Origin: Solen grandis
Lineage: Eukaryota; Mollusca; Bivalvia; Adapedonta; Solenidae
DNA: 64,000 bases
Assembly (NCBI GenBank): GCA_021229015.1
Contig: CM037782.1
Span: 36,688,912-36,752,911, forward strand
Direction: 5' to 3'
Numbering within the stretch: the stretch's first letter is position 1; each line of letters begins with the position of its first letter. The notes under the pieces are model-generated. The model saw nothing but the letters and a program-made list of their open reading frames with translations, ran no database searches and was not told the origin of the DNA. Positions 256 to 62,926 of this stretch are shown one piece after another. Position numbers and translations under genes: made by a program.

Positions 256-357
256 TGTCACAGGGTGAGAAAAATATGCAGCCTGACCTGGACTCGAACA
301 CGGGGCCTTTCGCTTACAGGCGAATGCTCTACCGACTGAGCTACCTGGCCGCTTACA
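256..357 (-). repeat. Complete 3' LTR of the TRIM, 102 bases
   Basis: It runs from TGTAAGC (357) to TGTGACA (256) on the minus strand. The A box TAGCTCAGTCGG lies at 343-332 and the B box-like GTTCGAGTCC at 299-290. The run TTTTT at 274-270 follows the tRNA-like part directly and could end a pol III transcript. The anticodon-loop region is one base shorter than in the other LTR. Confidence 0.8.
290..343 (-). promoter_or_regulatory. Putative pol III internal promoter (A and B boxes) inside the LTR
   Basis: The A box TAGCTCAGTCGG fits the tRNA consensus TRGCNNAGYNGG. The B box GTTCGAGTCC fits GTTCNANNC. The two are spaced about as in a tRNA gene. The acceptor stem is poorly paired, so I read this as a promoter module and not a working tRNA gene. 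Confidence 0.65.
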
Positions 358-362
358 TATGA

Positions 363-374
363 TTCTCCCCTTTT
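363..374 (-). other. Polypurine tract of the TRIM
   Basis: On the minus strand AAAAGGGGAGAA lies five bases before the TG that opens the 3' LTR. That is the expected place and composition for plus-strand priming in an LTR retrotransposon. Confidence 0.75.
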
Positions 375-494
375 GTGTTATCGGTACTGTGACGTTATAC
401 CCCTCCATTTTAAAATTTGTTCCAGAATTCTAGGAGTTAAGGGTAAATATAACCATGTGCAGGTGTCTTAGACATACCTAGCACTGATGCCACA

Positions 495-512
495 GCCCCA
501 CGTTGGGCGCCA
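495..512 (-). other. Primer binding site, tRNA-Lys type
   Basis: On the minus strand TGGCGCCCAACGTGGGGC begins two bases after the LTR end. All 18 bases match the primer site used with tRNA-Lys1,2 by several retroelements, as I recall it. This is the strongest single sign that the element replicates by LTR-type reverse transcription. Confidence 0.85.
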
Positions 513-514
513 AA

Positions 515-603
515 TGTCACAGGGTGAGAAAAATATGCAGCCTGACTGGGACTCGAATTCGGGGCCTTTCGCTTACAGGGCGAATGCTCTACTAACTGAG
601 CTA
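515..603 (-). repeat. 5' LTR of the TRIM, truncated at its outer end
   Basis: It matches the 3' LTR from TGTGACA (515) back to the A box (603-592, TAGCTCAGTTAG). The outermost ~14 bases are replaced by a TA-rich run. The B box at 558-549 reads ATTCGAGTCC, with a base changed from the usual GTTCGA. Confidence 0.75.
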
Positions 604-9000: not shown

Positions 9001-12000
9001 TAAACAGTAGTCTGGTTGCCTGGTTTCATGTCATTTGAGTGTTGTTGTTTTTTTAGCTCACTTGAGCAAACCTCAGGGTGAGCTTTTGTGATCATCCGTT
9101 GTGCGTCATGCATCAACATTTTCAACAATCTTCTCCTCTGAAACCACCAAATGGATTTTCATCAAATTTTGCCAAATACTTATATATATATACTTATGAT
9201 AGCCTAATGCAAATTCCTATTTTTTTTTCAATTCCATGAAAAACTCTGGTTGCCATGGCAACCAGAAGATAAAATCTTTAAAATGCCCTTTTTTCAGAAA
9301 TAAATAGACCTACAGATTTGATATTTGGTACATAGCATCAGCTCATGTTGCCTCAACATCAGAGCAAAATTTGTGCCAAATTTTGTTTAGAACAATATAG
9401 GGAATTCTTGAAAAATCTTCTCTTCTGAAACCACTTTATAGATTTTCACCAAATTTCACTAAAATGATACTTATGTAAGCTTGAGGCTAATTCCTAATTA
9501 TTATTGAATTTCATGAAGAACTTTGGTTGCCATGGCAACCAGAATACATAACTTGTGTTGTTGTGCGTCAACAATTTCAACAATCTTCAACTCTGAAAAT
9601 ACTAAATGGATTTTCATCAAATTTTACCAGAATGATACTTATGATAGCCAAATGCAAGTTCCTATTTTTTTTTCAATCCCATGAAAAACTCATGTTTCTA
9701 TGGCAACCAGAAGGGAAAATATTTAAAATGCTTTTTCTCAATAATATTTAGACCTACAGATTCGATATTTGGTAGATAGCTTCAGCTCATGTTGCCTAAA
9801 CATCAGTGCAAAATTTTTGCCCCCTGGGGTCACAATAGGCCACGCCCATGGTCGCACGCGGATTTTTATAAAGAACTATATAGAGAATTCTTGAAAAAAC
9901 TTCTCTTCCAAAACTAGTCAATTGATTTTCGCCATATTTAACTAAAATGATACTTATGTTAGCCTTAGGCTAATTCCTAATTTTTCTTAAATTTCATAAA
10001 GAACTTTGGTTGCCATGGCAACCAGAAAGCATAACTTCAAAATGCTTTTACTCAGAAACATAATTATAGACCTACAGATTTGATACTTGGTACATAGCAT
10101 CAGCTTCTGGTGCCTATACACTTAACAACAAATATGGTTGCATCAGGGTTTACATAAGGACACTCCTTGGACCACACACAGATAGGATCATGAAGAACTT
10201 TTGTTGCCATGGCAACCAGAATACATACTATAAAATGCCTTCTCTTAGAAATATACAGACCTACAGCTTTTATATTTGGTATATAGTATCCTCTTATGGT
10301 TTCTTTCTTCAGCAAACCAAATTCAGGTGAGCGATTTAGGACCATCTTGGCCTCCTTGTTTATGATGCGCCACAGTTGACATGTCTTCTTCACTAAGCAT
10401 CTCAGTTGATTTGCATTTTACACTATCAGTTTCATACTTTATAAAATCATATGCTAAGTGATAATCCTTTTATAACATGATGCTCTAATTGAAATAACTT
10501 TTGCAACTACTTGTAATTGTAGTATATAAGACCAGGCTCAAATTTCATCAACCATTCTTAGTGCTAAGTAATGTTTAAGTACCTGAGGGTGAATTTTGTC
10601 ATTCTCGTTTCTCTCATAAAAATGATTTAAGTTAGATCAGCTTGTTAGTAATTTGCATTTATGATAGTAAAGGATTAACCACACATATATTCAGATTGCA
10701 TGATAAATGATCTCATGGAATTATTGATGTTGCTGAGTTTTCTTGCCTATTTTTGAATGAGATGGATGTTAAAAATGAAGTAGTCTGTCTTGTTCCAGAG
10801 GGACAGATAGGCCTAAACACAATCAGAATTGACAAACATTGTTTCCTGAGTATCAGGTCTTTGTTCTCTTTCATATAGGTCAAGATAAGTGTTATCTTTA
10901 GCATGGGTCAAGTGTATGAATCATTGTTGTACATGACCTGTACTGTGTGTCTAACTTGATATTAAATGTGTAATGTCCTAATCATGTACTTGTTTCACAT
11001 TAAAATTTTAGTTTTCCTTATTTTTTCTTTTTATTCTTATTTTCCTGACAATTGTAGTTAGATCTAAATACTTGACAACAAATACTTATAGGTACTAAAA
11101 TAGTTTTTATAAATGTTAATATAATTGTAATTCCCTTTTCAACTCTTTTGTCTTAGTCAAGGTATTAACACCTTGTTTATATTCTATTCATTCATTAAAA
11201 TATGTGAGTTTATGAACATATGTTTTCCTATTTCAAGAATAACTATGTTAGAAATGTAGCTTGATATATAAAATCAAAATTTCATACTTTTTATTTAATA
11301 ATTACTGGTACCTTTTACCTCAAATATACCGATAGATGCTAATTAATGTTTTGGTTAACAGCAGACTCGAATCAGACGGCTGATCAAGGTCTCTGTTTGC
11401 TCAGATAATATAGTTGCCCAGATTATAAAGTCTACATGGTAACAATAACTTCATTGTCTCATTTACACATCAAAATTTTCATGGAATAACCCTTTCCCTC
11501 ATATAGACTCATTTTGACGCACTCAGTAGGTACCACATAAAGCCTGATCTGCAGAAAACCACAGTTAAAACCTAACAAATTTAATTACAAAATCCTCATT
11601 TCAAGACCACTGAGGAGCAGCGAACAGCATAAAACCTGATCAGCCTGCGAGTTACTCGCAGGCTGATCTGGTTTTATGCTGTTCGCATAGGTCTTTTCAT
11701 GGTTTCCTCTATGAGGGAAAGGGATGAATGCCTTGTTAAATCTTAGATACTGGTGTATGTCAGTATGTATTATTGATTTCTATGCTTATATAGAGAATTG
11801 TCCATGGCACATAGTCTCCAAATGACTGAAATATTGTCGGCAGGACATTAAACCATAACAAACTTGCCGACTATATGTGAATTTTTCATGAGTCCAAAAT
11901 CAACAGATTGTAAGTTGTAAATACAAGATTCCAATATTAAATTCACCAATATCATACTTCTCCGTATGATATACAGAATGCTTTATGGTGAATCAACTTG

Positions 12001-15000: not shown

Positions 15001-18000
15001 TAAATAATGGTTAAACAACAAAATGCTAGTTTTGTAAAATTAAAACTGACTGCTAAATGCAGGTTAACCGTTTAATACAAGTGGCCGCTAATACAGGTTC
15101 AACTGCATATGTAAGTAGGAAGTAGGAATAGTCCCACTTGTCTTTTCCTCAGAATTAATTGGTTTTGGGACAGAAATCCTCTTCTTTGTGCTTTTTAGCT
15201 CACCTGAGCACAAAGTGCTCAAGGTGAGCTTTTGTGATCGCCCGTTGTCCGTCGTCCATCGTCCGTGCGTCCGTGCATGCGTCCGTCGTCAACTTTTCGT
15301 TCAAACGACTTCTTCTCCTAAACCACTGGATGGATTTTAACCAAACTTCACAGGAATCATCCTTATCATGACCTCTTTCAAAGTTGTTCAAATTATTTTG
15401 ATTGGGTGAATAAGTAGGTCACAGGAGCTAAAAATAGATTTTTAAAATGCAATCTTAGAAAATCTTCTCCTGCAAAACTGTAAGGCCTAGAGCTTTAATA
15501 ATTGGTATGTAGAATTGTCTTATGAACATCTACAAAAGTTGTTCAGATCTTGACCCTGGGGTCAAAATTGGCCCCGCCCCAGGGGTCATTTTATTTTTCA
15601 TAGGTTTATATAGTGAAAAACTTTAAAAATCTTCTTCTATGAAACAATAAGGCCTAGAGCTAAGATATTTGGCATGTAGCATTGTCTAATGAATCTCTAC
15701 AAAAGTTGTTCAAATTATGACCCTGGGGTTAGAATTGGCCCTGCCCCGGGGGTCACTTGTTTTACATAGACTTATATAGGAAAAACTTTAAAAATCTTCT
15801 TCTATGAAACAATAAGGCCTAGAGCTAAGATATTTGGCATGTAGCATTGTCTAATGAATCTCTACAAAAGTTGTTCAAATTATGACCCTGGGGTTAGAAT
15901 TGGCCCGCCCCGGGGGTCACTTTTTTAAAAATTTAAAAAAATTTGGTAGATCATTAACGGTTCATTACCAAGATTGTTCAAATCATAGCCCTATGGTGAT
16001 AAATGACCCCGCACCAGGGGTTACTTGTTTTACATAGAGTTATATAGGAAAATCTTAAAAATCTTCTTTTATGAATCCATAAGGCCTAGAGCTTAGATAA
16101 TTAGCTCACCTGAGCACAACGTGCTTATGGTGAGATTTTATGATTGCCTTTTGTCCGGCGTCTGTCGTCCGTCCATCTGTCTGTGCGTGCGTGCGTCCGT
16201 GCATGCGTCCGTCGTCAACTTTTCGTTCAAACGACATCTCCTCCTAATCCGCTGAAGGGATTTTGACAAAATTTCACAGGTATCATCCTTATGATGTCCT
16301 CTAACAAAATTGTACAAATTATTATGATTGGTTGAAAAAGTAGGTCACAGGAGCTAAAAATAGATTTTTAAATGCAATCTTAGAAAATCTTCTCCTGCAA
16401 AACTGTAAGGCCTCTACAGCATGTAGAATTGTCTTATAAACCTTTACAAATATTGTTCAAATCATGGCCCTAGGGTCAAAATTTGCCCTGCCCCAGGGGT
16501 CACTTTATTTTACATAGGCTTATAAAGGGAAAACCTAGAAAAATCTTCTCATCAGAAACCACATGGCCTGGTGTTAAGATATTGGGTATGTAGTATTGTC
16601 TGGTGGATCTCTACTTAAGTTGTTCAAATCATGGCCCTTGGGTGAAAATTGGCCCTGCTCTAGGGGTCACTTGATTTTACATAGGAAAAATAGAAAAATC
16701 ATCTCCTGAAATACTGCAAGGCTTAGAGCTTGGATATTTGGTATGTAGAATTGTCTTGTGAACTACTACAAAAGTTGTTAAAATAATGACCTCTGGGTCA
16801 AAATTGCCCTCGCTCCAGGGCTCATTTTATTTTACAAAGGCTTATAAAAAAGTTATAAAAAGTTATATAGGGAAAAACTAGAAAAATCTTCTTATCAGAC
16901 ACCACATGGCCTAGAGCTTAGATATAAGGCTTGTACCATTGTCTAGTGGATCTCTACCAAAGTTGTTCAAATCATGGCCCTTGGGTCCAAATTGGGTCCG
17001 CCCCAGGTGTCACTTGATTTTACATAGGCTTATATAGAGGAAGAAAGGAAAATCTTCTTCTCAGAAACCACAAGGTCAAGAGTTAAGATATTTAGTGTGT
17101 AGCATTGTTTAGTACATCTCTATCAAGTTTTTTTCTTCAAATCATGGCCCTGTGTCAAAATTGGTCCCACTTTAAGTATGTTCATATTATAAGCCATTGA
17201 AAGCAATATTTCTCAGGTGAGCGATTAAGGGCCATCATGGTCCTCTTGTTTTTTAGTATGGTTTCTTAAATCAGGGGTTTCTTTAAGGATTTGACTTCCA
17301 CTTGCCTAAGGGGCAAGTTACTTTGAATATCTACTTGCCCCCAGTGAAAACAGCTTGTCCAATCTTTAAGTTAGTTAGTGTTTGTTAATGTTTAAAACTA
17401 ACTATGTGTAGTTTTAAAATGAATTTTAGTTAACATGTATCAAACGCAATTTGCAAGCAACTCACCCCCTATATTATGTAGAAAGTAAAATATAAAAAAA
17501 AAAACCCCGAAAGATTTCATTTACGAAAATAAACTTGCCCAATGCGCTATCTCCGTGATTTTAACCCGGCACGGGCAAGCGGGCGTCCACTTAAGAAAAC
17601 GCCTGTAAATGGTTCTATACCATGTGTATAATGGTATGGCACTTATTTATAGAAGGACTTCAAATGACAGCCCACATTCTATTAGCTTGGGTGAGGGGAC
17701 ATTCTTGATGTTTTTTTTGTTTTTTTTTTTTTGCTCAACCATTCACAAAGAATAAGGAGAACTATTCTACTCACCAGAGCATCGGCATCACTGATAATGA
17801 TTATTTTAAAGAATAAGGAGTAAAACTCTGGTTGTCATGGCAATGGAAAGAAATGAATTGTGAAACCTTTAGACGTCATCTCCTTCAAAACTACTGGCCA
17901 GATTTCAAAATGTTTTAGTACAGATATTCCTTGGGTAACCCTCTACCAAGATTGTTAAAATTATTCCAGTCTGTAAATAACTTGGCCGCCAGAGGCGGGG

Positions 18001-21000
18001 CTAAATTTTCCTTAAATGTATATAGTGAAAACTTTAAAAGACTTCTGCTCCAAAACTTCTGGCCAGATTTTAAAATGTTTTGGCACAAACCTCTACCAAG
18101 ATTGCTCCTTTAGAGCAGTGGTACTCAGGTGAGCGATATAGGGCCATCATGGCCCTCGTTTTAAGCTCACCTGAGCACAAAGTGCTCAAGGTGAGCTTTT
18201 GTGATCGCCCTTCGTCCGTCGTCGTGAGTCGTCCATCGTCAGTCGTCCGTCGTCAACAATTTGCTTTAAACGACATCTCCTCTGAAACCACTGGACAGAA
18301 TTTAATGAAACTTGGCAGGAATGTTCCTTGGGTGAGGCTCTACAAAAGTTGCTAAAATAAAGTTGATCCATGCAGAACTCTGGTTGCCATGGCTACAAAA
18401 AGAAAAAAAAATATGAAAACTTTAAAAATCATCTCCTTCAAAACTACTGGCAAGATTTCAAAATAATTTGGTACAGATGTTCCTTGGGTCAACCTCTACC
18501 AAAGTTGCTAAAATTATTCCGATCCGTAAAAAAACATGGCCGCCAGGGGCGGGGCTTATTTGCCTTATATGTATATAGAGAAACCTTTAAACAACATCTC
18601 CTCTGAAACCACTGGACAGATTTTGATTAAACTTGGCAGGGGTGATCCTTGGGTCAACCTTCACAAAAGTTGCTAAAATAAACTTGATCCATTAGAACTC
18701 TCCAGGCAACAAAAAGAAAAAAAAAATGAAAACTTTAAAAATCATCTTCTTCAAAACTACTGGCCAGATTTTAAAATAAATTGGTACAGATGTTCCTTGG
18801 GTCAACCTCTACCAAAGTTGCTAAAAAAATTCCGATCCATAAAAAACATGGCCGCCAGGGCGGGGCTTATTTTGCCTTATATGTATATAGGAAAACTTAA
18901 TCAACTTTCCTCTGAAACCACTGGACAGAATTTGATTAAACTTGGCAGAATGATCCTTGGTCAACCTTCACAAAAGTTCCTAAAATAAACTTGATCCATT
19001 TAGAACTCTGGTTGCCATGGCTACAAAAAGAAAAAAAATATGAAAACTTTAAAAATCATCTTCTTCAAAACTACTGGCCAGATTTTAAAATAAATTGGAA
19101 CAGATGTTCCTTGGGTCAACCTATTTATCTCAGGTGAGCGATTTAGGGCCATCATGGGCCTCTTGTTTTTTTGGGTTTTTTTTAGTTATTCTGCTTTTTC
19201 TCATTTTTGTGTCACCTGCTGTAAGTAGAGGTGACAATCCATTGTTTGTCTTTCTGTCACACATGTTTCTAGTAATAAATAGATATTAGATTCTCTTATG
19301 GTATTTAAAGCGGTATGATGGTTGATTAAGGCAGTATAAATCATTCAGTCTTAAGTTACTTTGCAGTATTAATCATACAGTCTTGAGTTTCTTTGCAGTG
19401 TAAATCATACTTTTTTGAGTACTTTATAAACTAAATAATTATATAATCAGATTAATATGGAAAAAGCTAACCAGAGCTCTGTGTAATTGCATAGTGTATG
19501 TCAGTGTTCTCACTAACTAATTTGGAGTCCTTTAGAACTCCAATATTTGGGGAAAGGACCCCAACAGCCACTTATCTAATATTCGTGAGAACTCCAACTT
19601 CAGCAATTAATCTTTGTCAAGGACAACAGTTTTCTGAATCCTTGTGAGAACCCTGGTATGTGAAATTGGCTCTGAATTGAATAATGTTGCAAATGCAAAA
19701 TGTGTCTTTATCTGATCATGCTATTCAAATGATCCAGTAATAAATAAATGCGATTATATTTAGGTAAAGTCCCTGTAATGGTTCCATTACATTTCGGACC
19801 TCATGGCCTTTGACGCAGATAACCAAGGTACCTTATGTTTCATTAGGGTACCTTGGTTATCTAGGTAGCGGACATAGCAGAACCATTACAGGGACTTTAC
19901 CTTAAGCTTTTATTCCATAACTTGTTAGGGCAGTATCTACACATCTTTTTACACTGTCATTTACATGTATGAATTTAATTTGATATGAAAATGATACTGA
20001 TAATATTATCATCATAATAACCGTAATATATAATAGATTTTACTATGCCATGAAATTGAAAAATGATACCAATGATACTGATTTTAACCCTTTCCCTCAT
20101 ATAGACTCATTTTGACGCACTCAATAGGTACCACATAAAGCCTGATCTGCAGAAAACCACAATTAAAACCGTACCAAATTTAATTACAAAATCCTCACTT
20201 CCAGACCACTGAGGAGCAGCGAACAGCATAAAACCTGATCAGCCTGCGAGTTACTTGCAGGCTGATTTGGTTTAATGTTGTTTGCATAGGTCTTTTCATG
20301 GTTTCCTCTATGAGGGAAAGGGTTAAATTGTATTATTTTGAAAGTAGCATACATGTATCAGTATGTAGGTCAGGGGTTTCCCCTGTTTTTGTTTCATTTT
20401 TCAAGAGAGTCATATGATCCTTGTTATATAGATAAAAAACAATTGTTTAAATACTTGAAGATCATTCAGTTTATATGAGGGTCAATATAGACATTTGTCA
20501 TCAAAAACTCATACATACATGAATATGATTTTGCTGTTTTCTGCTGTATTCTAATTTGTTATTCTCATATTGCCAATAGTCAAGCCAGACCCTGTATCCC
20601 AGCTGACATACATGAACCTCAGCAGTACCCAGGCTGTCCTGAAATGGGCAATCCCGGTCGGCCTCACATTAAAAATGCTCAAGTCCATGAACTACGAGAT
20701 ACAGGTGCAGTCACAAAATGATTGGGATGTTCGGATGGTTGTAAGTTCTGACTTATTGTAGACCAGCACTTTGACACCATTCTATCTCTATTTCTGTACA
20801 CACTTAATATAGTTCTACAATTGAAATAGTTCTGCAGACCACAATCTGGTCTTCAGGATTTAATCCTGCCTTTAGAAAAAAATATATTTTGCACTGGGAC
20901 AAAAGAAGGAATCTTTGGAGCTTTCCCAGCTTTGCTCTCAGCTCTATATCTGTTATAAGGAGATTTTCCCTTATGAATAGTATAGTTACGGAAGAAAATT

Positions 21001-27000: not shown

Positions 27001-30000
27001 GTAATTTTATCACTGGCACTGTAAGGGGTGATCTCATTGTCCTTGATGTAGGGGGAAACAAGTACTCAGAGAAATCCCACATGGGCAACCAATGCCCTTT
27101 CACATGCAGTGTCGAACTGACAAGGGATTAATCCTGGGTTGCATTCGTGTAAAGCCAGTGCCTTAACCACTAAGCAATCCAGAAACCTACTGCTTGTCCA
27201 GACATAGAAATTTATCTGTAGTATAAAATTATTACACCCCAACATCACCGAGTGAATTGGGTTTATATAGGAATCATGTGTGTTAATTGGGTTTATATAG
27301 GAATCATGTGTGTTAATTGGGCTTATATAGGAATCATATGTGTTAATTGGGTTTATATAGGAATCATGTGTGTTAATTGGGCTTATATAGGAATCATATG
27401 TGTTAATTGGGTTTATATAGGAATCATGTGTGTTAATTGGGTTTATATAGGAATCATATGTGTTAATTGGGTTTATATAGGAATCATGTGTGTTAATTGG
27501 GTTAATATAGGCCTCAGGTGTGTTAATTGTCCTCTCCCACCCCCTCTACTATGAATTCAATATTTTCTCATTTGCTTGAGTCAAGGCAGTGTAGCAGGGT
27601 TATTCACAACTTTCATGGTGGCTCTAGTTCTACCAACCATAGAAGATTTTTAAGTCGTAGAGACCATTACCACCCAAATGCTGGGCTTCATGTTCATAGT
27701 GTTAATCCAGCTGCCATCTCCTAGCTCCATTGATTTATATGATCTGGTTTACAAACACTTCAGTTCCAAACCATACAAATATGCTCAGTGATGGGCCGTG
27801 TAGTCTAGAAAGCCCGGAAGAGTGAATGCTTCATCTCTATTCTAGGGAAGAAGACCCAGTGCATAAAAGGAGGCATAAATTATGAGAAATATGGGAAAAA
27901 ACACTACTCAAAGCAGCCTTAGTTTAGACTTATTTATGTCAATTAAGAAACAAGGTCTTCCAACTTAACCCTTTCCCTCATAGAGGACACCATGAAAAGA
28001 CCTATGTGAACAGCATAAAACCAGATCAGCCTTTGAGTAACTCGCAGGCTGATCAGGTTTTATGCTGTTCGCTGCTCCTCAATGGTCTGGAAATGAGGAT
28101 TTTGTAATTAAATTTGGTAATAATTAAACTCTGGCTTACTGCAGATCAGGCTTTATGTGGTACCTATTGAGTGCGTCAAAATGAGTCTATATGAGGGAAA
28201 GGGTTAATATACTAATCTCTTTTGACGTATCCTTGGTTGGACAAGTACTTAGCGCCTGGGACGGTCATGAAAATTCTTTGCCCCCAACAGGGTTCAAACC
28301 TACAACCTTCAGAACTGCAGTCAGATATGTTACTGCTTAACCATGGTGTCCTTGTTGTGGAGTACTGGGAATTTCTGCATTTAGGGTTCAAACCTAGGTT
28401 TCTCATTAAACATTATATGGCAATTTTGCCATTATTTTGTGATGATATGACATAAGTAAACAAATATCTTTTGAGTCAATTGATTGTCTTTCATGATATT
28501 GACAATCACATTATAATGGAAGGTGTAGCATTCATTTTCTTTTCTAGGATGACCTTGACTGGATCACATACCCAGTAAATGATGGATGTATGAATGACAC
28601 ATGGAAGTGGCTCAATGCAACAGGGAACGTGGAAGATCTGAGATATGCAGTGGCATTTGTTGTCAATGGTACAAGTGGTGGAATGGTTTGGCAGACATTC
28701 CGCTTCAGCAACTATGCTGCAGGTGATATGATCAACTGGTTAACTTCGCTTCCATAGAATAGAATACTGAGTGTTTGTTTGTATATTCTTTGTGCTCCTG
28801 TAACATATTGTGCATTAGGTAAAAAAATCACTGCCTCAGAAACGGTCAATCTTTACAGTGAATGCTTGCAATGTGTTTGAACATTTAAACTTTTTCTCTC
28901 CACAAAATGTAAAGGAACCCTGAAATATTAAATTCTAGAAAAAATAATTGTCAAATTGATGTATTTAATATAAATATTTTTTTTTATAATTAAAATATAA
29001 TTTGAATCCAGGTTATATACTTGTTTCTGTTTGTATATCTAAAGTTTCAACGTTCTGGAGATACAGAATATATTGAATTTAAATCAGAAAAATAAAAAAA
29101 AACAACATATAAATGCATATTTTATAAAAAAAAAAATCAAATTATCTTAAAAAAAATTAAATTGATTTAAATCACTTTTTGTGTGTATAAATGTTTATTT
29201 TTATGATTCCTGTCAATTACCAGTTCATAGATCATTAGCATAAACTATTTAACCCTTTCCCTCATAGAGGAAACCATGAAAAGACCTATGCTGATCAGAT
29301 TTTATGCTGTTCGCTGCTCCTCAGTGGTCTGGAAATGAGGAGTTTATAATTAAATTTTATAAGGTTTAACTGTGGTTTTCTGCAGATCAGGCTTTATGTG
29401 TTGAGTGCGTCAAAATGAGTCTATATGAGGGAAAGGGTTAAAGTAATTGATTATCTTTTAATCTTTATATTGAATTTGATCATTATTGATTGCCTCATTT
29501 TAAACAAAACCATTTAAATTCTTTATTGAACTACACTCCTGTGACGATGAAAACATATTTTTAACCATTTTCAACCTTTAGCTTACTTAAGTAATATTCA
29601 ACATTTGTAAATGTTTTGTATGATGCATTGTAGCATTTTATGTTTTCATGACATCAGTATTGCAACTGTGTCCATAAACAAAGTTTAATATGATCAGCGA
29701 CAACCAAAAAAAGAAAAAAAACGTATTTGGGTTAATTTCAATGTTGTCCAACATGCTTTTTTCTTAAAATATGCCAAATCTTGCATCTGGTTTAATACCT
29801 GTGAAAAAGGCACTCATGTAACAAGGATGCAGGCAATCACTGTAAAGATTGGCCTGATCATGAGGCAGTGATTTTTTACCCGTTTCAATATGCTACAGGC
29901 ATTTGCTGTAAAGATTAGCCCATGTGCAAAGGATATAGTAATGCTTAATACTGTGTACATTTTACTTATTTGGTGTATACATGGTGAATTCCTTTTGTTA

Positions 30001-33000
30001 CAATTTTAGCTATATTTAAATGAATGCTAAATTCAAGATTAATGTTTTTAGGGTTTTTTTTGCATTGGGTTCCAAATTTTTTTCTTTGAAAGCAAAATAA
30101 ATTGTATATATATCATTCAGCTTCACTCGTATTCCTTATGTAATGAGGTTAAGGAGAAAAGACAAACCCCTTGAATATCATTAATTATAGTGTTTCCTGA
30201 ATATAACTCAAGGCATGCAGAATACTTTCAATTTAGTGAATTAAATCTATCAAGATTGAAAATGTCACTGGAAAGTTTGGTGTTGCAGCAAAAAATACTT
30301 TAAACTATGGTAAAAACTTCTTAAACAGGGGAGAGTCAATTAGTAAATCAGTTAATTTTGAAAATGTCACTTGTTATTTATTTATATTGCACACATGCTT
30401 TCATGTTGTTTTTATTTTGATATGAATAAATCCTTTAAAGAGTAACAACCTACATTATATGAAAACATGTAGTATTAGTAAAACTGCTGACAATAAGTGT
30501 GATTGTATAGTTCCAGAGCGACCGTTATTCTCGGTGGAGCCTGGACCTTCCAAGCAAGACTCCATCAGACTGACCATGCTGTTTGATGAAACTATGTCAG
30601 TAAGGGTGGTCGTCCTCAGCACTACCTCATCTCTTGTACCAGGACAGAGGACCGACAGTGTCGTGCAGGTCAGTTTACAACCACTGTGTGGTGGCTGGTG
30701 GTTATCAGTGTGTCATTATCAGATTATATGGGAATTGTTTGGAATCTGTGTTTTGTTTTTATACAATCTTGATATTTTGATATTGATTATGATTGATTAG
30801 TTTTTAGCTCACCAGAGCAAGAAGTGCTCAGGGTGAGCTATTGGGATCACCCTTCGTCCGTCGTCTGTCGTCCGTCGTCAACAATTTGCTTTAAAAGACA
30901 TCTCCTCTGGTACCGCTGGACAGAATTTGATAAAACTTGGCATGTATGATCCTTGGGTGGGCCTCTACAAAAATTGCTCAAATAAAGTTGATCCATGAAG
31001 AACTCTGGTTGCCATGGCAACAAATAGAAAAACTAATTGAAAACTTTGAAAATCATCTCCTCTGAAACCGCTGGACAGAATTTGATAAAACTTGGCATGT
31101 ATGATCCTTGGGTGGGCCTCTACAAAAATTGCTCAAATAAAGTTGATCCATGAAGAACTCTGGTTGCCATGGCAACAAATAGAAAAACTAATTGAAAACT
31201 TTGAAAATCATCTCCTCTGAAACCGCTGGACAGAATTTGATAAAACTTGGCATGTATGATCCTTGGGTGGGCCTCTACAAAAATTGCTCAAATAAAGTTG
31301 ATCCATGAAGAACTCTGGTTGCCATGGCAACAAATAGAAAAACTAATTGAAAACTTTGAAAATCATCTCCTCTGAAACAAATGGTCAGAATTTATTTTCC
31401 TTTGGCACAAATAGTCACCTTATGAATGTCTACCATAATTGCTAAAATAAAGTTGATGCCTTGAAAAATGAGGCCCCTAGGGGGTTGGCTAATTTCCCTA
31501 TATACTCTATATAGAAAACATCAAAATACTTTTTTTTATGAAGCCAGCTGTGAGAATCTAATTTCCTTTGGCCCAAATAGTTACCTCATGAATGTATACC
31601 AATATGGCTAAAACAAAGTTAATTCCTAAAAAAATGAGGTCCCTAGGGGTGGCTAATTCCCTTATATACTCTATATAGAAAACATCAAAATTCTTCTTCT
31701 GTGCAAAGGCCAATATGGGGCCGAAATTTGGCCCCATTCCCATCCGTAAAAGTATATATTTTTCCTCAACCGCATTTTACACACTTCTCCTTCTCAATTT
31801 GTTTTGTTTTTTCTCATGTAACTGGTAATCCGCCTGGTAATCTAAAGAGAACTAAAAAGAGCGAGGAAAAAACTAGAAATGAGCTTATCTGTTTAACTCT
31901 ATTTTGAATAAAATTTTGCCAGATTCATGGCGATGTCACGTACGCAAATTGCCGATTTTGTTACGAAAATATTTTAATGTAGAGATGCATTGTTTTGAGG
32001 ATAAAAGCTAAAAAGACACACTGTAGGTAATATGGAGAGTACTTTTAGTATTTTGCAAAATAGAATCACAACTTTCTCTGACCATGTAAATAAAATTAAT
32101 AACCAAAAAAGCTTTGCATTTCTAAATGTCATCAGTTTTCGCGGATTTACTTTCTCTTTTGACAACTTGTAAATAAAAGGAATCTGAAACGATATTAAAG
32201 AATTTTCGAAATATTTTGTTACAGATTGTTATTTAAAAGTTTAATCATGTTATGTAAAAGTTAAATCAACCATTTTAATGGACTGCTTTCATTTTCTTCC
32301 CATACAAAAAGCCCTTTGGCTTTCAAACTATCACATCATGTAACTGCAACTGATAATACAATATATTATATTATCTTCAATTAATAAATTTCAGAATTTT
32401 ACTTCCATGAAGTTAATGGTCAGGATTGATTTCATGAATGTCTGCCATGATTGCTAAAATGAAGTTAATCTCTGGTTTGTCATTTGATTTCCTTATAGAA
32501 AAAATCATCTTGAATATGCTGATTTACACTGGTGAGCATTTATGGCCCTTGGGCCTCTTGTTATCATGTCTTAATCCATTCTTGCCTCAAATATTTGTTG
32601 TATTTAACATGTTGAACCAAGTTGTTAGAGCATCCCTGTACTTGGGGGGTTGTGGGTTCGATCTACAGCTGTGACATCAATGTTGTTAAACATAAAACAG
32701 GTGTATATTCTCAGCATACCAAAAATGGGGATAATGAAAAATGTATGTGAAAAAAAAAATGAAAAAAGTTTTCAATGTCTAAAAAACCGTCATAAGGACA
32801 TAGTCATTAAACTCAAGCAAACATATTATTTACAGGTGGAAGGATGAGGAGAGAGACTGTTGATTTCAGCAACCCAGCCATCACTATCACAGATCTGGAT
32901 GCTGGTTCCATGTACAGCCTCTGTGTAATAGCAGAAAATACTGCCGGAAACAGCAGTCTCGGGGAACCAAAGTTTGTCACTCTGCATAAAGGTAGGGAGA

Positions 33001-36000
33001 TTTTCAACTCATCTTTATGGTGATATCACAGTTTGGAATGTATTTAAAATTGAAAATAAGAATAAGAATGCTCCTATCTGAACATGATATTGCATTATTT
33101 TTGACCGTCTAAGGTGTTGCTCAAACTATTACTATTACATTTTTTCAAGGAATGCTTTGAAACAAGGTACTTTTGAGGATAAATATGCTTGAAATTTTTA
33201 TCATGTGACTCTCTACTCATTGGTGATGTGCCCTTTGATATGCATATTGTTATGTTTTCTCAGACACAGCAGTGTGTTGGATAGGGAGATATAAATGATT
33301 TTCAGTGATAGTTCAAGTTTATCTCCACAGTCAGAATCCTTTATATCACATGCGCACTCAAACATAGTGTAAGTTTGGACCCAAGGTCTTTACTTTTAGT
33401 TGTTTAGATGCATTTTCGCAAAGATTTAATCACTTTGGTATTTTAAATGCTATATCTTGATTTGACCCAAATACTAGTATGGTGTTTTATTAAAAAGAAG
33501 TTGCTCTGAACCCATTATTTTTATTTCAGTTGATGAAGATAATACAGGCCTGTTTGTGGGACTAATCTTAAGTTTAACAGTAATTGTTATAGCGATTATT
33601 GTCGGGTAAGTGCTACTGTTAGGAAGTGAATTTCTTAGAACTCTTATCTAGATTAATAAGGCAGTACATTTGTTATAATCCATAGTGTATGTAGACCAGA
33701 AAAATGAGAGAAATCAGATTCAGTCATGATTTATGACATATTTAATTGGTGACTATGGAAATCCTTCCTGAATAAAGAAAACTGACTTTGATTTCAAGAC
33801 GCATTTTTTTTAAATTCAACTGTTAAATTCTGTATCATTTCAGTTTTAAAGAAATGGAGATTTTTTTCAGAATACATGTTTAGGAAGTCTCTATCTAATG
33901 AATGACTTTTCTGTAGTTGCATAAGTAAGGAAATTATAGATTGTCCTACATTTTGAGTGGAGGAAATGTTAAGTTTTACAGTTCCTTGAAACAAGCTTGT
34001 AGTGCTTCTTGAAGGTTTTCAAACTTTCATAGCTCTTTAAGAAATCTTTAAAACATTCTTAGTTGATTGCTGATTGCTTATCACTGAACATTAAAATGCA
34101 GTTTCTGTTCCAATTGTATTTTTTAGCTCACCTGAGCACTTGTGCTCGGGTGAGCTTTTGTGATCGCCTTTTGTCCGTCGTGCGTCGTCCGTCGTCAACA
34201 ATTGCTTGTGAACACTCTAGAGGCCACAGTTTTGGCCCAATCTTCATGAAACTTGGTCAGGATGTTTGTCTACATGATATCTCGGATGAGTTCGAAATTG
34301 GGTCATGTGGGGTCAAAAACTAGGTCACTAGGTCAAATCTTAGAAAAACCTTGTGAACACTCTAGAGGCCACAAATTTGGCCCAATCTTCATAAATTTCA
34401 GGATTTTGTCTACATGATATCTGGATGAGTTCGAAATTGGGTCATGTGGGGTCAAAAAGTAGGTCACAGGTCAAATCCTTGAAAAACCTTGTGAACACTC
34501 TACAGGACACAAATTTGGCCCAATCTTCATGAAACTTAGTCAAGGATATTTGTCTACATGATATCTCGGATGAGTTCGATATTGGGTCATGTGGGGTCAA
34601 AAACTAGGTCACCAGGTCAAATCTTAGAAAAACCTTGGAACACTCTAGAGGCCACATTTGCCCAATCTTCATGAAAATCAGGTGTTTGTCTACATGATAT
34701 CTCGGATGAGTTCAAAATTGGGTCACATGGGGTCAAAAACTAGGTCACCAGGGAAAATCTTAGAAAAACCATGCGAACACTCTAGAGGCCACAGTTTTAG
34801 CCCAATCTTCATGAAAAATGGTCAGGGTGTTTGTCTACATGATATCTTGGATGAGTTCGAAAATGGGTAATGTGGGGTCAAAAACTAGGTCACCAGGTCA
34901 AATCTTAGAAAAACCTTGTGAACACTCATTTTTGTCCCAGTCTTCATTAAACTTAATATGAATGATGACTGCATGAATTCCCAGTTGAGTGCAAATTCAG
35001 GTAGGATCAATATGTAGGTCACTTAGTCAAATGTTAGAAAAACACTTTTAGATGCCAGATTTTTTGTCATTATGCCTAACACAGCCATCTTACTCAGGTG
35101 AGCGACACAGGGCCATCTTGGCCCTCTTGTTTTTTCAACTGACCATAACCCAAATGTTTTTTTTTTTTTTTCTTCTTAAAACCTTTTTTCCTGATTTTAT
35201 AAAAAAATACTATGTTTGCAATACTCTCTTAATAATAACTTGATATCATTTTATTTTGTAGAATTAAACTAGGCTTTAAAAAGTATTTGAAGAAGCTGGC
35301 CAGAAGAAACAAAGTCGAGATTCTGGTATGTATCTTGACTTTGTTGTGTACTAGTATGCAATTCCTAATCATGGCCTGAACATGCAAAGATTTTATCTTA
35401 CTTAGTTTAACCCTTACCTGCTGAATTTCTCAAATGGACTTAGCCAGCACCTTTCTTAGAACTGTCCATTATCAATTTTAGGGATAACAAGATGAAAACT
35501 TGTAGTTGGTCAGCCAACAGTAAAGAGCCAGGCCAGCCTACACTTTCATGCAGGCTGGTCTGGCTCTTTACTGGTGGCAAAGGATAGGACTTTTGGTTCC
35601 GGCAGGGTAAGGGTTAAAAATTATACTGGTATATCTCTTTGAAATGTGCTCTCACAGTATACTAGGGTAGTACCAGGACTAGGTGTGGTATCATGCTGCA
35701 TGTCCAGAGCGTATCACAGTGAGGTAGCATTTAAAACTGTTGGGCTACAAAAATCATTTTGATTTAAATAAAAAAATATAACAATGCTTTCTGTTTGACA
35801 ATTTATATTCGTAATGAGTTATTGTGAGTAAACTTAGTTCATAATTAATTTTAATTTAGGTAGTTTTCAGAGATACAAAGATTTGGTCTCTTTTTGGATT
35901 ATTATGGGTCAAGGTCATTGGTACTTAAAAGTGAAAGAGGTTTCCTTTTAATTTTACTTAGTTACAAGTGATTTACTGATAGTCAAGTAAATATGGTAGT

Positions 36001-48744: not shown

Positions 48745-49397
48745 AAAACCATTTACACTTATCATAATACAAATTCAGCAAACACTGCTTTAAATATACT
48801 GGTGCTATAAATTATACAGACAGCAAACAAAATACATGAAGATGTATGTTTTAGTTGTATACAGACAAGTGCTGGTGTAGATATGTCGCATATTACAAAT
48901 TTGATTGAAAGGTTCATTGTATGGAATTCAGAAATACGGAATAAAACATTTTAATATAGGAATGTTTATTGAAAAATTAAGCAAATAGCAAGCTGTAATA
49001 TGATATAAAAGTGCCAAAAAAACAACAACAACTTACCAACGTAACATGTACAATGATAAAACTATACCTGTATTAACAAATACTTGTATTAACAAACAAC
49101 TCGAACTGAAACAAGTACTTGGGTGCCTGCATGTTGGGTAGAAAATTTCTGGTACCAAGGAAGAAATTATTACCAGTTTCACGATGTCCGCCTTTTCTAT
49201 TATGATACTTTGTGTACTTTGTTTCTTTATAACGTTTACATACGTCAATAGCCATTTTTTAATGATAACCTTTAAAACAGAATTTTATCTTCACATGCTT
49301 AAAGATGGAATGTATTTTGGGTGTACAAAGTCTGTATCATATTGAAATGTGTTAGTAATTACAGGTGGTTAAGCAATAAAAAAAAATTAAAAAAAAA
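48745..49397. other. Unrecognised AT-rich stretch
   Basis: Two overlapping minus-strand open frames at 49033-49255 have no recognisable domain. I leave them unannotated. Confidence 0.35.
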
Positions 49398-49910
49398 TTG
49401 ATTATATACTTTAACCACACGTTACATTTGCCATCGTATGTGAAAGATACCACCGACTTTATAAATAAGGTGAGGAATATTAAAATTAAGAGTAGTACAT
49501 CATATCTAGCAACTCTAGATGTATCATCTCTATATACTAACATTCCCCATAATGACGGCATAAATGCTTGTAAATTTTTCTTGCAACAAGATGGACACCA
49601 CAACAAATTGTCGAGTGATGAAATTGCTCGTTTATTGAAGCTTGTACTTGAAAATAATTATTTTGAATTTGACAATGAATTTTACCTACAGAAGATGGGT
49701 ACAGCAATGGGAAGCTCGATGGCGTCTACCTATGCGTCATTATTCATGGGAAAACTTGAACAGGATTTCACCAAGACATGTAAAATAAAACCCTCTGTAT
49801 GTTTAAGATTTCTTGACACATCTTTATTATATGGGATCATTCACTTGAAGAGTTAGAAACATTTATTGACAACTTAAATAATTTTCATCCGATTATTAAT
49901 TTTACATGTG
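49398..49910 (+). pseudogene. Penelope-like element reverse transcriptase, fragment
   Basis: The frame from ~49413 has LPSYVKDTTDFINK, then LATLDVSSLYTNIPH (RT motif A with the catalytic Asp) and GTAMGSSMASTYASLFMG (motif B). Both are typical of Penelope-like elements. In the next motif the frame reads CLRFLD and then TSLLY. The expected continuation (IFIIWDHSLEELETFIDNL) is open in the -1 frame from 49816, so one base has been lost at the catalytic Asp-Asp. No GIY-YIG endonuclease domain is present; a SINE head follows from ~49911. The N-terminal part is missing. Confidence 0.85.
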
Positions 49911-50000: not shown

Positions 50001-50100
50001 NNNNNNNNNNNNNNNNNNNNNNNNNNNNNNNNNNNNNNNNNNNNNNNNNNNNNNNNNNNNNNNNNNNNNNNNNNNNNNNNNNNNNNNNNNNNNNNNNNNN
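50001..50100. other. Assembly gap (100 N)
   Basis: A fixed-size run of N that follows a SINE head. The true length and content are unknown. Confidence 0.99.
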
Positions 50101-50388: not shown

Positions 50389-50745
50389 GGATCTGACCAC
50401 ATCGTATAGAGGGTCGTCTTAGATTGACCTTTAAACCAATCAAATCGGCAGCTACAGAATCGTTCGGTATAACCAGAGTAAATAACCGCATTCATCTCGC
50501 AATAGGGTAGAAAGATGTGTAAGCGCCGGGTAGCTCATTCGGTAGAGCATTCGCTCTGTATAAGCAAAAGGCCCGGGTTCGAGTCCCAGTCAAGCTGCAC
50601 ATTTTTCTAACCCTGTGACAAATGTTTTACCGAAATCAGTTAGAAACGCGCTATTTGATTGGTTTAAAATCGAGCACTTGTTTATTTATATAAAATACTT
50701 TAAAGGTCAATCTGATGTGAACCCATATGAAATGTTGTCAGATCC
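50389..50745. mobile_element. Imperfect inverted-repeat element
   Basis: Three arm segments pair in order: GGATCTGAC (50389-50397) with GTCAGATCC (50737-50745); AGATTGACCTTTAA (50421-50434) with TTAAAGGTCAATCT (50700-50713); ACCAATCAAAT (50435-50445) with ATTTGATTGGT (50653-50663). The true outer ends may lie further out. Superfamily unknown. Confidence 0.65.
50518..50620 (+). mobile_element. Solo LTR of the tRNA-like TRIM family
   Basis: It starts TGTAAGCGCCGGG and ends CCCTGTGACA, 103 bases. A box TAGCTCATTCGG at 50531-50542, B box GGTTCGAGTCC at 50576-50586 (better than in the 256-603 copy), TTTTT at 50602-50606. Flanks GATG and AATG may be a diverged four-base target duplication. There is no primer site after it, so it is a solo LTR. 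Confidence 0.75.
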
Positions 50746-51229
50746 TAATCGCGGTTAATAGAGGAGCGCAAATTAGGATATGATTTTTATGAGATTGTGC
50801 AAATATAGCATTGGTAGCTCCTTGCCGACGCTAAGAATAAATATAAGAAAATTACAGACTCGAATTCCAGTTGCAATTTATTATTCCTGTTTTAAGAAAT
50901 ATTCCAACTACAGGTCCAAGTTTTTCCTTCATAACTGACAAAATGTGTTTGAAAATTAACTTCATTTTAATATGACTAATTTTTAGAGAGCAAAAAAAAA
51001 AATAAAAAAAAAATGACGCTACTCTCTTCTAATTATTGAAGTTTTGCGTAGCGCTAAGTATCAGAATTATGTGGCAGGAAGTGGTAGCATGTTATATGAC
51101 TTGATTGTAACATAGTCTCAAAATGACTGAAATATGAAACACACCGACACAGGGACGAAAATCCAGCAAACATATATATCAATACCGTTGAAGTTTGCAA
51201 ACCGAAAATATGGTTCGATGATCATTTAG
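50746..51229. other. Spacer with a SINE tail fragment
   Basis: 51110-51150 ('acatagtctcaaaatgactgaaat') is a short SINE-tail remnant. Otherwise nothing recognised. Confidence 0.4.
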
Positions 51230-51500
51230 GGGGCCTCCGTGGCCGAGAGGGTAAAGTCTTTAACTTTAACACTCACTCAGCCCCTCACCGCGTGGGTTCG
51301 AATCCCGGCAGGGTCACTCGGATTTTCATGTGAGGAAGCCTTCCAGCTGGCTTGCGGTAGGTCGGTGGTTCTACACGGATGCCTCCGTACATTCGGGGTC
51401 TTCCTCCGCCTGTAATTAGCTGGACGTCGCTATATGACTGAAATACTGTCGCAGCGACGGTAAACTCAAATAGTCAAGTCAACAAGTCAAGTCAAGTCAA
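51230..51500 (+). mobile_element. SINE A, full length
   Basis: Head GGGGCCTCCGTGGCCGAGAGG with B box GGGTTCGAATCCC. A long extra arm before the B box suggests a Ser- or Leu-type tRNA ancestor. The conserved body ('gcctgtaattagctggacg', 'tgactgaaatactgtcgcag') is followed by a (TCAAG)n tail at 51474-51500. This is the reference copy for 36330 and 49911. Confidence 0.85.
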
Positions 51501-56170: not shown

Positions 56171-57135
56171 AAGATCGAGAGTGATTTGTTAAAGTCGTAA
56201 TAGCTTATTTCCAAATCTACGTTAATAGAAATAAACGATGGTGAAAAATACATTAAATGCTTAAATTAATATTCTTGTTTTACAAATATATTTTTCCTAT
56301 AAGCTACTGTGCGGCCATCATGCTATTTGTAAAGTTTATTTTCATGTTAATTCTTTGTGAGCCAGGTTCATAAACAGCCAAGATAGTGTGTTTTTCATAT
56401 CATATATACGTAAATTTGATTGAATGACAAATATTCCTAATGACTACTCATGGTCAGATTATCAATAGCAAGTGGGGACTCGTAAGTGCCTTAATGAATC
56501 TAGATAACCCGCCGGCCACTTTTTATCACAAGTAAGTGTGCTGGCTAACATTTCCCATCATACCTGGTACCCATTCGGATGAGGTAATCCAATATTTAAC
56601 ATCGGAAACTTGAAAAATACAAAGACAGTATTATCCTTGAAATCAGTCAAGTGAAACACACCTACGCTGCTTTCAACCCACACGTTATTTCAAAGCAGGG
56701 TTGTGTCATGCAAAAACCATGTCCTATGAAAACATTTATCCAAGCGGTGTATAGTAAAAATGTATGTTTATACACTTCGATTGCTCTATACAAATTATTT
56801 ATCGATTAATCAGTCCCATGGCTGAGCTGTTTTCCACTCAGTAGCCCGGTGTAAGGTGTGTCCCGAGATATATACATGTCCCAGACTTGTGGTTAAATAA
56901 AGGACACCCGACATCGGTCAGTTTGTTATAGTCTATGCCAGCAGTGAGCAAAATATAAAAAATAAGGACTTATTCATGAAATAATTATGCGGTTTGATGG
57001 ACCAGTAGTTGAAGGGCAAACCAGGTTTGTCTTCCTTTATTTGTCTAAATTTATTTTTTATGTAACTTAAAACGGTATTTTGACATTTGACGTCAAGACT
57101 CAAGATTACAGAGCCTCTTTGATAATGGAGTCTGC
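56171..57135. other. Unrecognised stretch
   Basis: Nothing definable. The open frame at 56933-57385 on the minus strand is created by the minisatellite that follows. Confidence 0.4.
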
Positions 57136-57300
57136 GACGTACAGCGACTTGTGGCATTGTCAGTCTGAGACGTACAGCGACTTGTGACATTGTCAGTCTG
57201 AGACGTACAGCGACTTGTGGCATTGTCAGTCTGAGACGTACAGCGACTTGTGGCATTGTCAGTCTGAGACGTACAGCGACTTGTGACATTGTCAGTCTGA
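57136..57300 (+). repeat. 33-base minisatellite, five units
   Basis: The unit starts GACGTACAGCGACTTGTG and ends GTCAGTCTGA, exactly 33 bases, with one variable base (TGGCATT or TGACATT) and a partial sixth unit. Being a multiple of three it gives repeated open frames on the minus strand. Confidence 0.95.
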
Positions 57301-57332
57301 GACGTGGTCTGAACCACTGCATTGTTTGTCTA

Positions 57333-62146: not shown

Positions 62147-62387
62147 TTAACCCTTTCCCTCATAGAGGAAACCATGAAAAGACCTATGCGAACAGCATAA
62201 AATCAGATCAGCCTGCGAGTAACTCGCAGGCTGATCAGGTTTTATGCTGTTCGCTGCTCCTCAGTGGTCTGGTGATGAGGATTTTGTAATTAAATTTGGT
62301 AAGGTTTAACTGTGGTTTTCTGCAGATCAGACTTTATGTGGTACCTACTGAGTGCGTCAAATGAGTCTATATGAGGGAAAGGGTTAA
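62147..62387 (+). mobile_element. piggyBac-like MITE, family 1, copy 9
   Basis: TTAA at 62147-62150 and 62384-62387 with a well-preserved central palindrome. It shows that the family also lies across the gap, inside the SAM-gene intron. Confidence 0.87.
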
Positions 62388-62642
62388 GTTTGTCAAGATC
62401 GACCTGAAAATGTGCAATCTGTCCAACACTGGCACTTTGGACAGAGGTGCATGGAGAGAGGGTGTTGGACACTGTAGCTGCCTGCTGCCTACCCCAGAAC
62501 ATGGGACACCCGCAGTAGTTGAAATATATAAGCTGGACCAAGTCAAGTTTCTGATATAAGATTATTACTTCGTTATTTTGAAAATAGAAAAAAATAGAAA
62601 CAAAGCGAGTATGACGATAACGAAGTGTTATTTATATTTCAG

Positions 62643-62926
62643 CTAAAGAGAAGTTCATACCAGAACACGAGATTGACATTCCGAAAGACGGCAGTTTGCA
62701 CGATTTTTCCACGGACGACATGTCCACGTTCTTCCGGTACATGGGCGTGGAGGAACGCATCGTGAATCACGTGCATAAGAAGGGGCTTGACGGATTGAAA
62801 TTCTCAAAGTTGAAAGACTCCGACCTTGAGGGGCTAGGAATGAAAAACCCCATTATTTGCCACTTCCGAGACAAAAGTATCCGGGAAAAAGGAAGCAAAA
62901 AGAAGAAAGCCCCATTTATGTTGTGA
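62643..62926 (+). CDS. SAM-domain protein, last exon
   Basis: After 'tatatttcag' the frame reads KEKFIPEHEIDIPKDGSLHD and then a sterile alpha motif of ~65 residues: STDDMSTFFRYMGVEERIV, NHVHKKGLDGLKFSKLKDSD, LEGLGMKNPIICHFRDKSI. It ends in a basic tail (GSKKKKAPFML) and TGA. SAM domains mediate protein-protein contacts, often as polymers. The W usual early in SAM helix 1 is F here. Which SAM family it belongs to cannot be told by eye. The only sure part of the gene is this exon and 60924-61035. Confidence 0.85.

Follow-up and report, generated by a model that had tools for sequence, protein, structure and literature searches.

A short LTR element with tRNA-like repeats, most probably a decayed Helenus-type TRIM

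The window, by which we mean the whole 64-kb stretch of DNA that was analysed, carries at positions 256–603 of its minus strand a short element that is very probably a decayed TRIM of the Helenus type. Such TRIMs are LTR retrotransposons that are non-autonomous and whose LTRs consist largely of a tRNA-derived unit; the likeness to Helenus is drawn here from the published description. TRIMs with tRNA-like LTRs were named Helenus by Kojima from bivalves and other organisms (Kojima, 2024; PMC10886601). The original prediction of a TRIM whose LTRs contain a pol III-like unit derived from tRNA is supported by the primer-binding site (PBS), by the polypurine tract (PPT) and by another unit elsewhere in the window whose termini agree with those of the 3' LTR. 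It had also held that a tRNA version of the plant element Cassandra was not recognised from molluscs, and here it was mistaken, as Helenus is already in print (PMC10886601). The element is thus an ordinary example of a published class, and the tRNA counterpart of Cassandra in molluscs is already known.

Structure of the element

The element is 348 nt long. A repeat search and pairwise alignment both place two direct repeats on the minus strand at a spacing of 259–260 bp, with the boundaries set by alignment. The 3' LTR (256–357) has 102 nt and runs from TG to CA, as had been described for both repeats, but the 5' LTR (515–603) is a remnant of 89 nt without a TG; about 14 nt are missing from its start, and AT-rich sequence stands in their place. 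When the LTR pair is aligned, a check proposed along with the original prediction, the 89 nt give 82 identities, 6 mismatches and 1 gap. Between the LTRs lies an internal part of 157 nt (358–514), the length first reported, which leaves no room for gag-pol, and the element shares this small size with Helenus. Because the start of the 5' LTR, and with it the outer boundary, is lost, no target duplication can be read at this copy. The outer flanks have TATA in common directly at the borders, and ATATA if an offset is allowed, a likeness that carries no weight in AT-rich DNA beside a truncated LTR.

The signals for reverse transcription lie where an LTR retrotransposon of the Helenus plan has them, with a PBS after the 5' LTR (here lacking its first 14 nt or so) and a PPT before the 3' LTR. 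The PBS (495–512, minus strand) is of the tRNA-Lys1,2 type, matches at 18 of 18 positions and starts 2 nt past the end of the 5' LTR, exactly as predicted; with up to three mismatches allowed, the 18-mer is matched once in the window and never in 100 shuffles. An identical 18-mer is printed as the tRNA-Lys1,2 PBS in passages of two papers (PMC1084362; PMC8775094). The PPT, AAAAGGGGAGAA, is 12 nt long (363–374, minus strand, placed by alignment) and lies 5 nt ahead of the 3' LTR, so that the tract reported before the second repeat is likewise present. In viral contigs, a pattern combining the LTR end with the PBS found no match.

A tRNA-like unit in the LTRs

Covariance models bear out the tRNA-like nature of the LTRs. 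On the minus strand, the Rfam tRNA family RF00005 matches the 3' LTR at 279–350 (40.1 bits, E 5e-5) and the 5' LTR at 545–604 (30.7 bits, E 0.02), and it also matches the further LTR unit described below (29.5 bits), all three scores lying above the gathering score of 29. In the 3' LTR the match takes up 72 of 102 nt, and ARAGORN independently calls a tRNA at 278–350, whose isotype could not be assigned.

Pol III promoter boxes were scored against the consensus sequences TRGYNNARNNGG for the A box and GGTTCGANTCC for the B box. The 3' LTR has an A box, TAGCTCAGTCGG, at 332–343 (12 of 12 positions) and a B box, TGTTCGAGTCC, at 290–300 (10 of 11), followed by a run of five T at 270–274; the corresponding features of the 5' LTR are TAGCTCAGTTAG at 592–603 (11 of 12), AATTCGAGTCC at 549–559 (9 of 11) and a T5 run at 529–533, all again on the minus strand. 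The T5 runs, located by alignment, are candidate pol III terminators. In the further unit, the A box agrees at 11 of 12 positions and the B box at all 11. Spacing between A and B boxes is 31, 32 and 33 nt in the three units, and the T5 run keeps one position throughout, 15 nt past the B box, with 14 nt left to the end of the LTR. Of the promoter as first described, then, the A boxes and the T5 run right after hold in both LTRs of the TRIM, but the B boxes had been overstated. Judged by their fit to the consensus, both B boxes of the TRIM copy are damaged, and since its 5' end is also gone, this copy is unlikely to be active.

This damage could be taken to favour an ordinary pol II-transcribed TRIM in which a tRNA piece of SINE origin plays no part as a promoter, and pol III use by Helenus and by another TRIM, Ajax, has not been experimentally validated (Kojima, 2024; PMC10886601). 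We nevertheless regard such an element as unlikely. The A–B spacing and the placement of the T5 run are kept in all three units, the B box is exact in one of them, and the extent of the tRNA match in the 3' LTR leaves scant space for another promoter; moreover, A and B boxes are conserved across Helenus families (PMC10886601).

Scanning both strands of the window for an A box of at least 11/12, a B box of at least 9/11 and a T4 run gave a raw count of five: the three LTR units, a tRNA match near 28343 and a SINE-like unit at 51240. The first of the two additional places corresponds to a fourth RF00005 match (28279–28350, minus strand, 30.8 bits), the last that the window has at the gathering score and a different sequence to which the TRIM shows no BLAST match. 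The second belongs to a different tRNA-like pol III unit at 51229–51400, with the B box GGTTCGAATCC; the sequence that follows it seems to resemble the conserved core of RUDI-type SINEs.

A further LTR unit in the window

By BLAST, the 64-kb window holds the TRIM and one further LTR unit. This plus-strand unit (50518–50620) has 103 nt, runs from TG to CA and contains its RF00005 match at 50524–50597. Aligned over the full length of both, it and the 3' LTR have 91 identities, 9 mismatches and 5 gaps, and their termini are alike. Its flanks, GATG and AATG, agree at three of four positions; by themselves they would point to a solo LTR whose 4-bp duplication is almost intact. The 17 nt in front of it (50501–50517, plus strand), however, may be a decayed purine tract: they agree at 12 of 17 positions with the 17 nt preceding the 3' LTR, a similarity reached by 27 of the 126,972 17-mers of the window, and the BLAST match of the element extends into them. 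Because this tract-like stretch precedes the unit, GATG may belong to the element rather than to the target. Further upstream, nothing else of the internal part can be recognised (29 of 60 nt agree; best BLAST E 0.55), and no PBS was found in the downstream flank. The unit may accordingly be a solo LTR or the 3' LTR remnant of a truncated copy. Whichever it is, an LTR element explains it better than SINEs inserted independently would, and the choice between the two leaves the odds of the Helenus-type reading unchanged.

That the repeats instead come from one tRNA-derived SINE, inserted twice independently and flanking 157 nt by chance, is very improbable. Such insertions would account for tRNA-like repeats with a T run close to their ends, and for a partnerless unit with equal limits at 50518–50620. 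They would leave to coincidence a PBS 2 nt past the 5' repeat and a PPT 5 nt ahead of the 3' repeat, as well as a tract-like stretch ahead of the third unit too. SINE duplications are about 7–20 bp long. With each unit taken alone, and with exact matches at offsets of up to 5 as the scope of the test, we found no flanking repeat of at least 3 nt at the 5' LTR, one of 3 nt at the third unit and one of 4 nt, offset by 4, at the 3' LTR. The original prediction had itself raised independent SINEs with their own duplications as the opposing case, and within this scope none of the three units is flanked by an exact repeat of more than 4 nt. Pseudogenes of tRNAs brought together by chance, for which the tRNA scores above the gathering score might speak, are scarcely credible given homology that continues beyond the tRNA part as far as the end of the LTR and an exact PBS that 100 shuffles did not produce.

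The possibility that the tRNA-like LTR serves as its own primer found no support. Compared ungapped with the primer 18-mer, the 3' LTR reaches 12/18 at best and the 5' LTR and third unit 10/18 each, values attained by 35, 335 and 389 per 1000 shuffles, respectively, so that the match to the 3' LTR is slightly above chance. Self-priming has no support in Helenus either (Kojima, 2024; PMC10886601).

A possible route of replication

The anatomy supports replication in trans by the machinery of LTR retrotransposons, as far as sequence can speak to it. In the route that we envisage, pol III would start at the tRNA-like unit of the 5' LTR, would sometimes read past the T5 run of that LTR, cross the internal part and stop at its counterpart in the 3' LTR, the T5 run there. 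The R region would then extend from the tRNA-like start to the T5 run, and U5 would be the last 14 nt of the LTR. Minus-strand DNA would be primed by tRNA-Lys at the PBS and plus-strand DNA by the PPT, with reverse transcriptase and integrase probably supplied in trans by a Gypsy-type element. At some later time the copy would have lost its 5' end and accumulated the changes in its B boxes.

We tentatively propose, while thinking it less probable than not, that a leaky T5 run, which pol III would read through in the 5' LTR but obey in the 3' LTR, sets the border between R and U5 and so yields both a short tRNA-like RNA and a full template, and that the reported molluscan range of Helenus would widen if the host is not a pteriomorph bivalve. 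The puzzle raised in the original prediction, of a pol III unit that stops within the LTR, is real, but it is common to the whole published class: the question for all of these elements is how an RNA across both LTRs is made despite a pol III stop in each. A decayed copy that has lost its 5' end offers little hope of an answer.

Relationship to known elements

The present element has the structural features of Helenus, namely tRNA-derived sequence in the LTRs, the order of LTR, PBS and PPT, and a short length. In bivalves, Helenus comprises 51 families in five pteriomorph orders, and its primers there include tRNA-Lys; lengths range from 311 to 1263 bp (screen limit <1000 bp), and the target-site duplication (TSD) in animals is 4 bp (Kojima, 2024; PMC10886601). 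The likeness to bivalve Helenus thus covers the TRIM form, the tRNA-like LTRs, the PBS and PPT, the tRNA-Lys primer and a similar size, whereas our copy lacks its 5' end and was likened by the published description. Gypsy elements are similar to Helenus at the PBS, and the comparison of Helenus with Cassandra has already been drawn (PMC10886601). A literature search for Helenus together with retrotransposon and tRNA found this one paper (PMC10886601) only.

In plants, the LTR of Cassandra also contains a gene for a small RNA together with a pol III promoter and terminator, but that gene is 5S rRNA rather than tRNA and the PBS is TGGTATCAGAGC (PMC7215508). Ajax, a nemertean TRIM, likewise has an LTR promoter derived from a small RNA, and differs in its 5S-derived LTRs, tRNA-Leu PBS and 5-bp TSD (PMC10886601). 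Another bivalve TRIM, biv-TRIM, has a purine tract GGGGAGA that also occurs within the tract found here, but its repeats are 202–218 bp long, its inner domain measures 77–80 bp and it has no unambiguous PBS (PMC6934838); none of the eight passages of that paper on tRNA or SINEs describes a tRNA-like repeat.

Elements of the Helenus type can inflate counts of tRNA genes, as reported for Pucciniales fungi, and seven bivalve Helenus families are able to encode tRNA-Thr (PMC10886601). For the clam Mercenaria mercenaria, a passage of the Ostrea edulis genome paper gives 791 tRNA-Thr and 465 tRNA-Ala predictions (PMC9679248), numbers that could reflect Helenus-like elements outside Pteriomorphia.

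Neighbouring sequence

Elsewhere in the window, a reverse transcriptase fragment at 49380–49856 matches Pfam RVT_1 (E 3.5e-7, 30.6 bits; cut-off 29.6), and we take it from its motifs to be Penelope-like. For 49380–49853 we found 156 relatives at E≤0.001; among the best 120 of these, the two matches named by organism are Ruditapes philippinarum, the nearer at 62% identity, and Actinostola at 46%. These relatives are compatible with a bivalve host, though no proof of one. A gap of 100 N follows at 50001–50100.

A 277-aa exon-like reading frame at 38030–38863 had no relatives at E≤0.001 among 475 candidates, a result that is weak for a single exon because of the length limit of the search, and a short reading frame at 62621–62923 had no match among solved structures. 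Diverged repeats with tandem periods of 155, 165, 188 and 313–314 occupy 1–255, 15300–19122 and 30889–31393, and several diverged repeats are related to 1–255, the sequence that adjoins the TRIM. Two minisatellites, at 27255–27529 and 57129–57305, have units of 30 and 33 nt and reading frames open on both strands. Matches to mir-1253 at 11614–11694, 35509–35584 and 62177–62263 score far under the gathering score. In two of the three cases they occur on both strands, an arrangement that points to hairpins of a palindromic, MITE-like kind.
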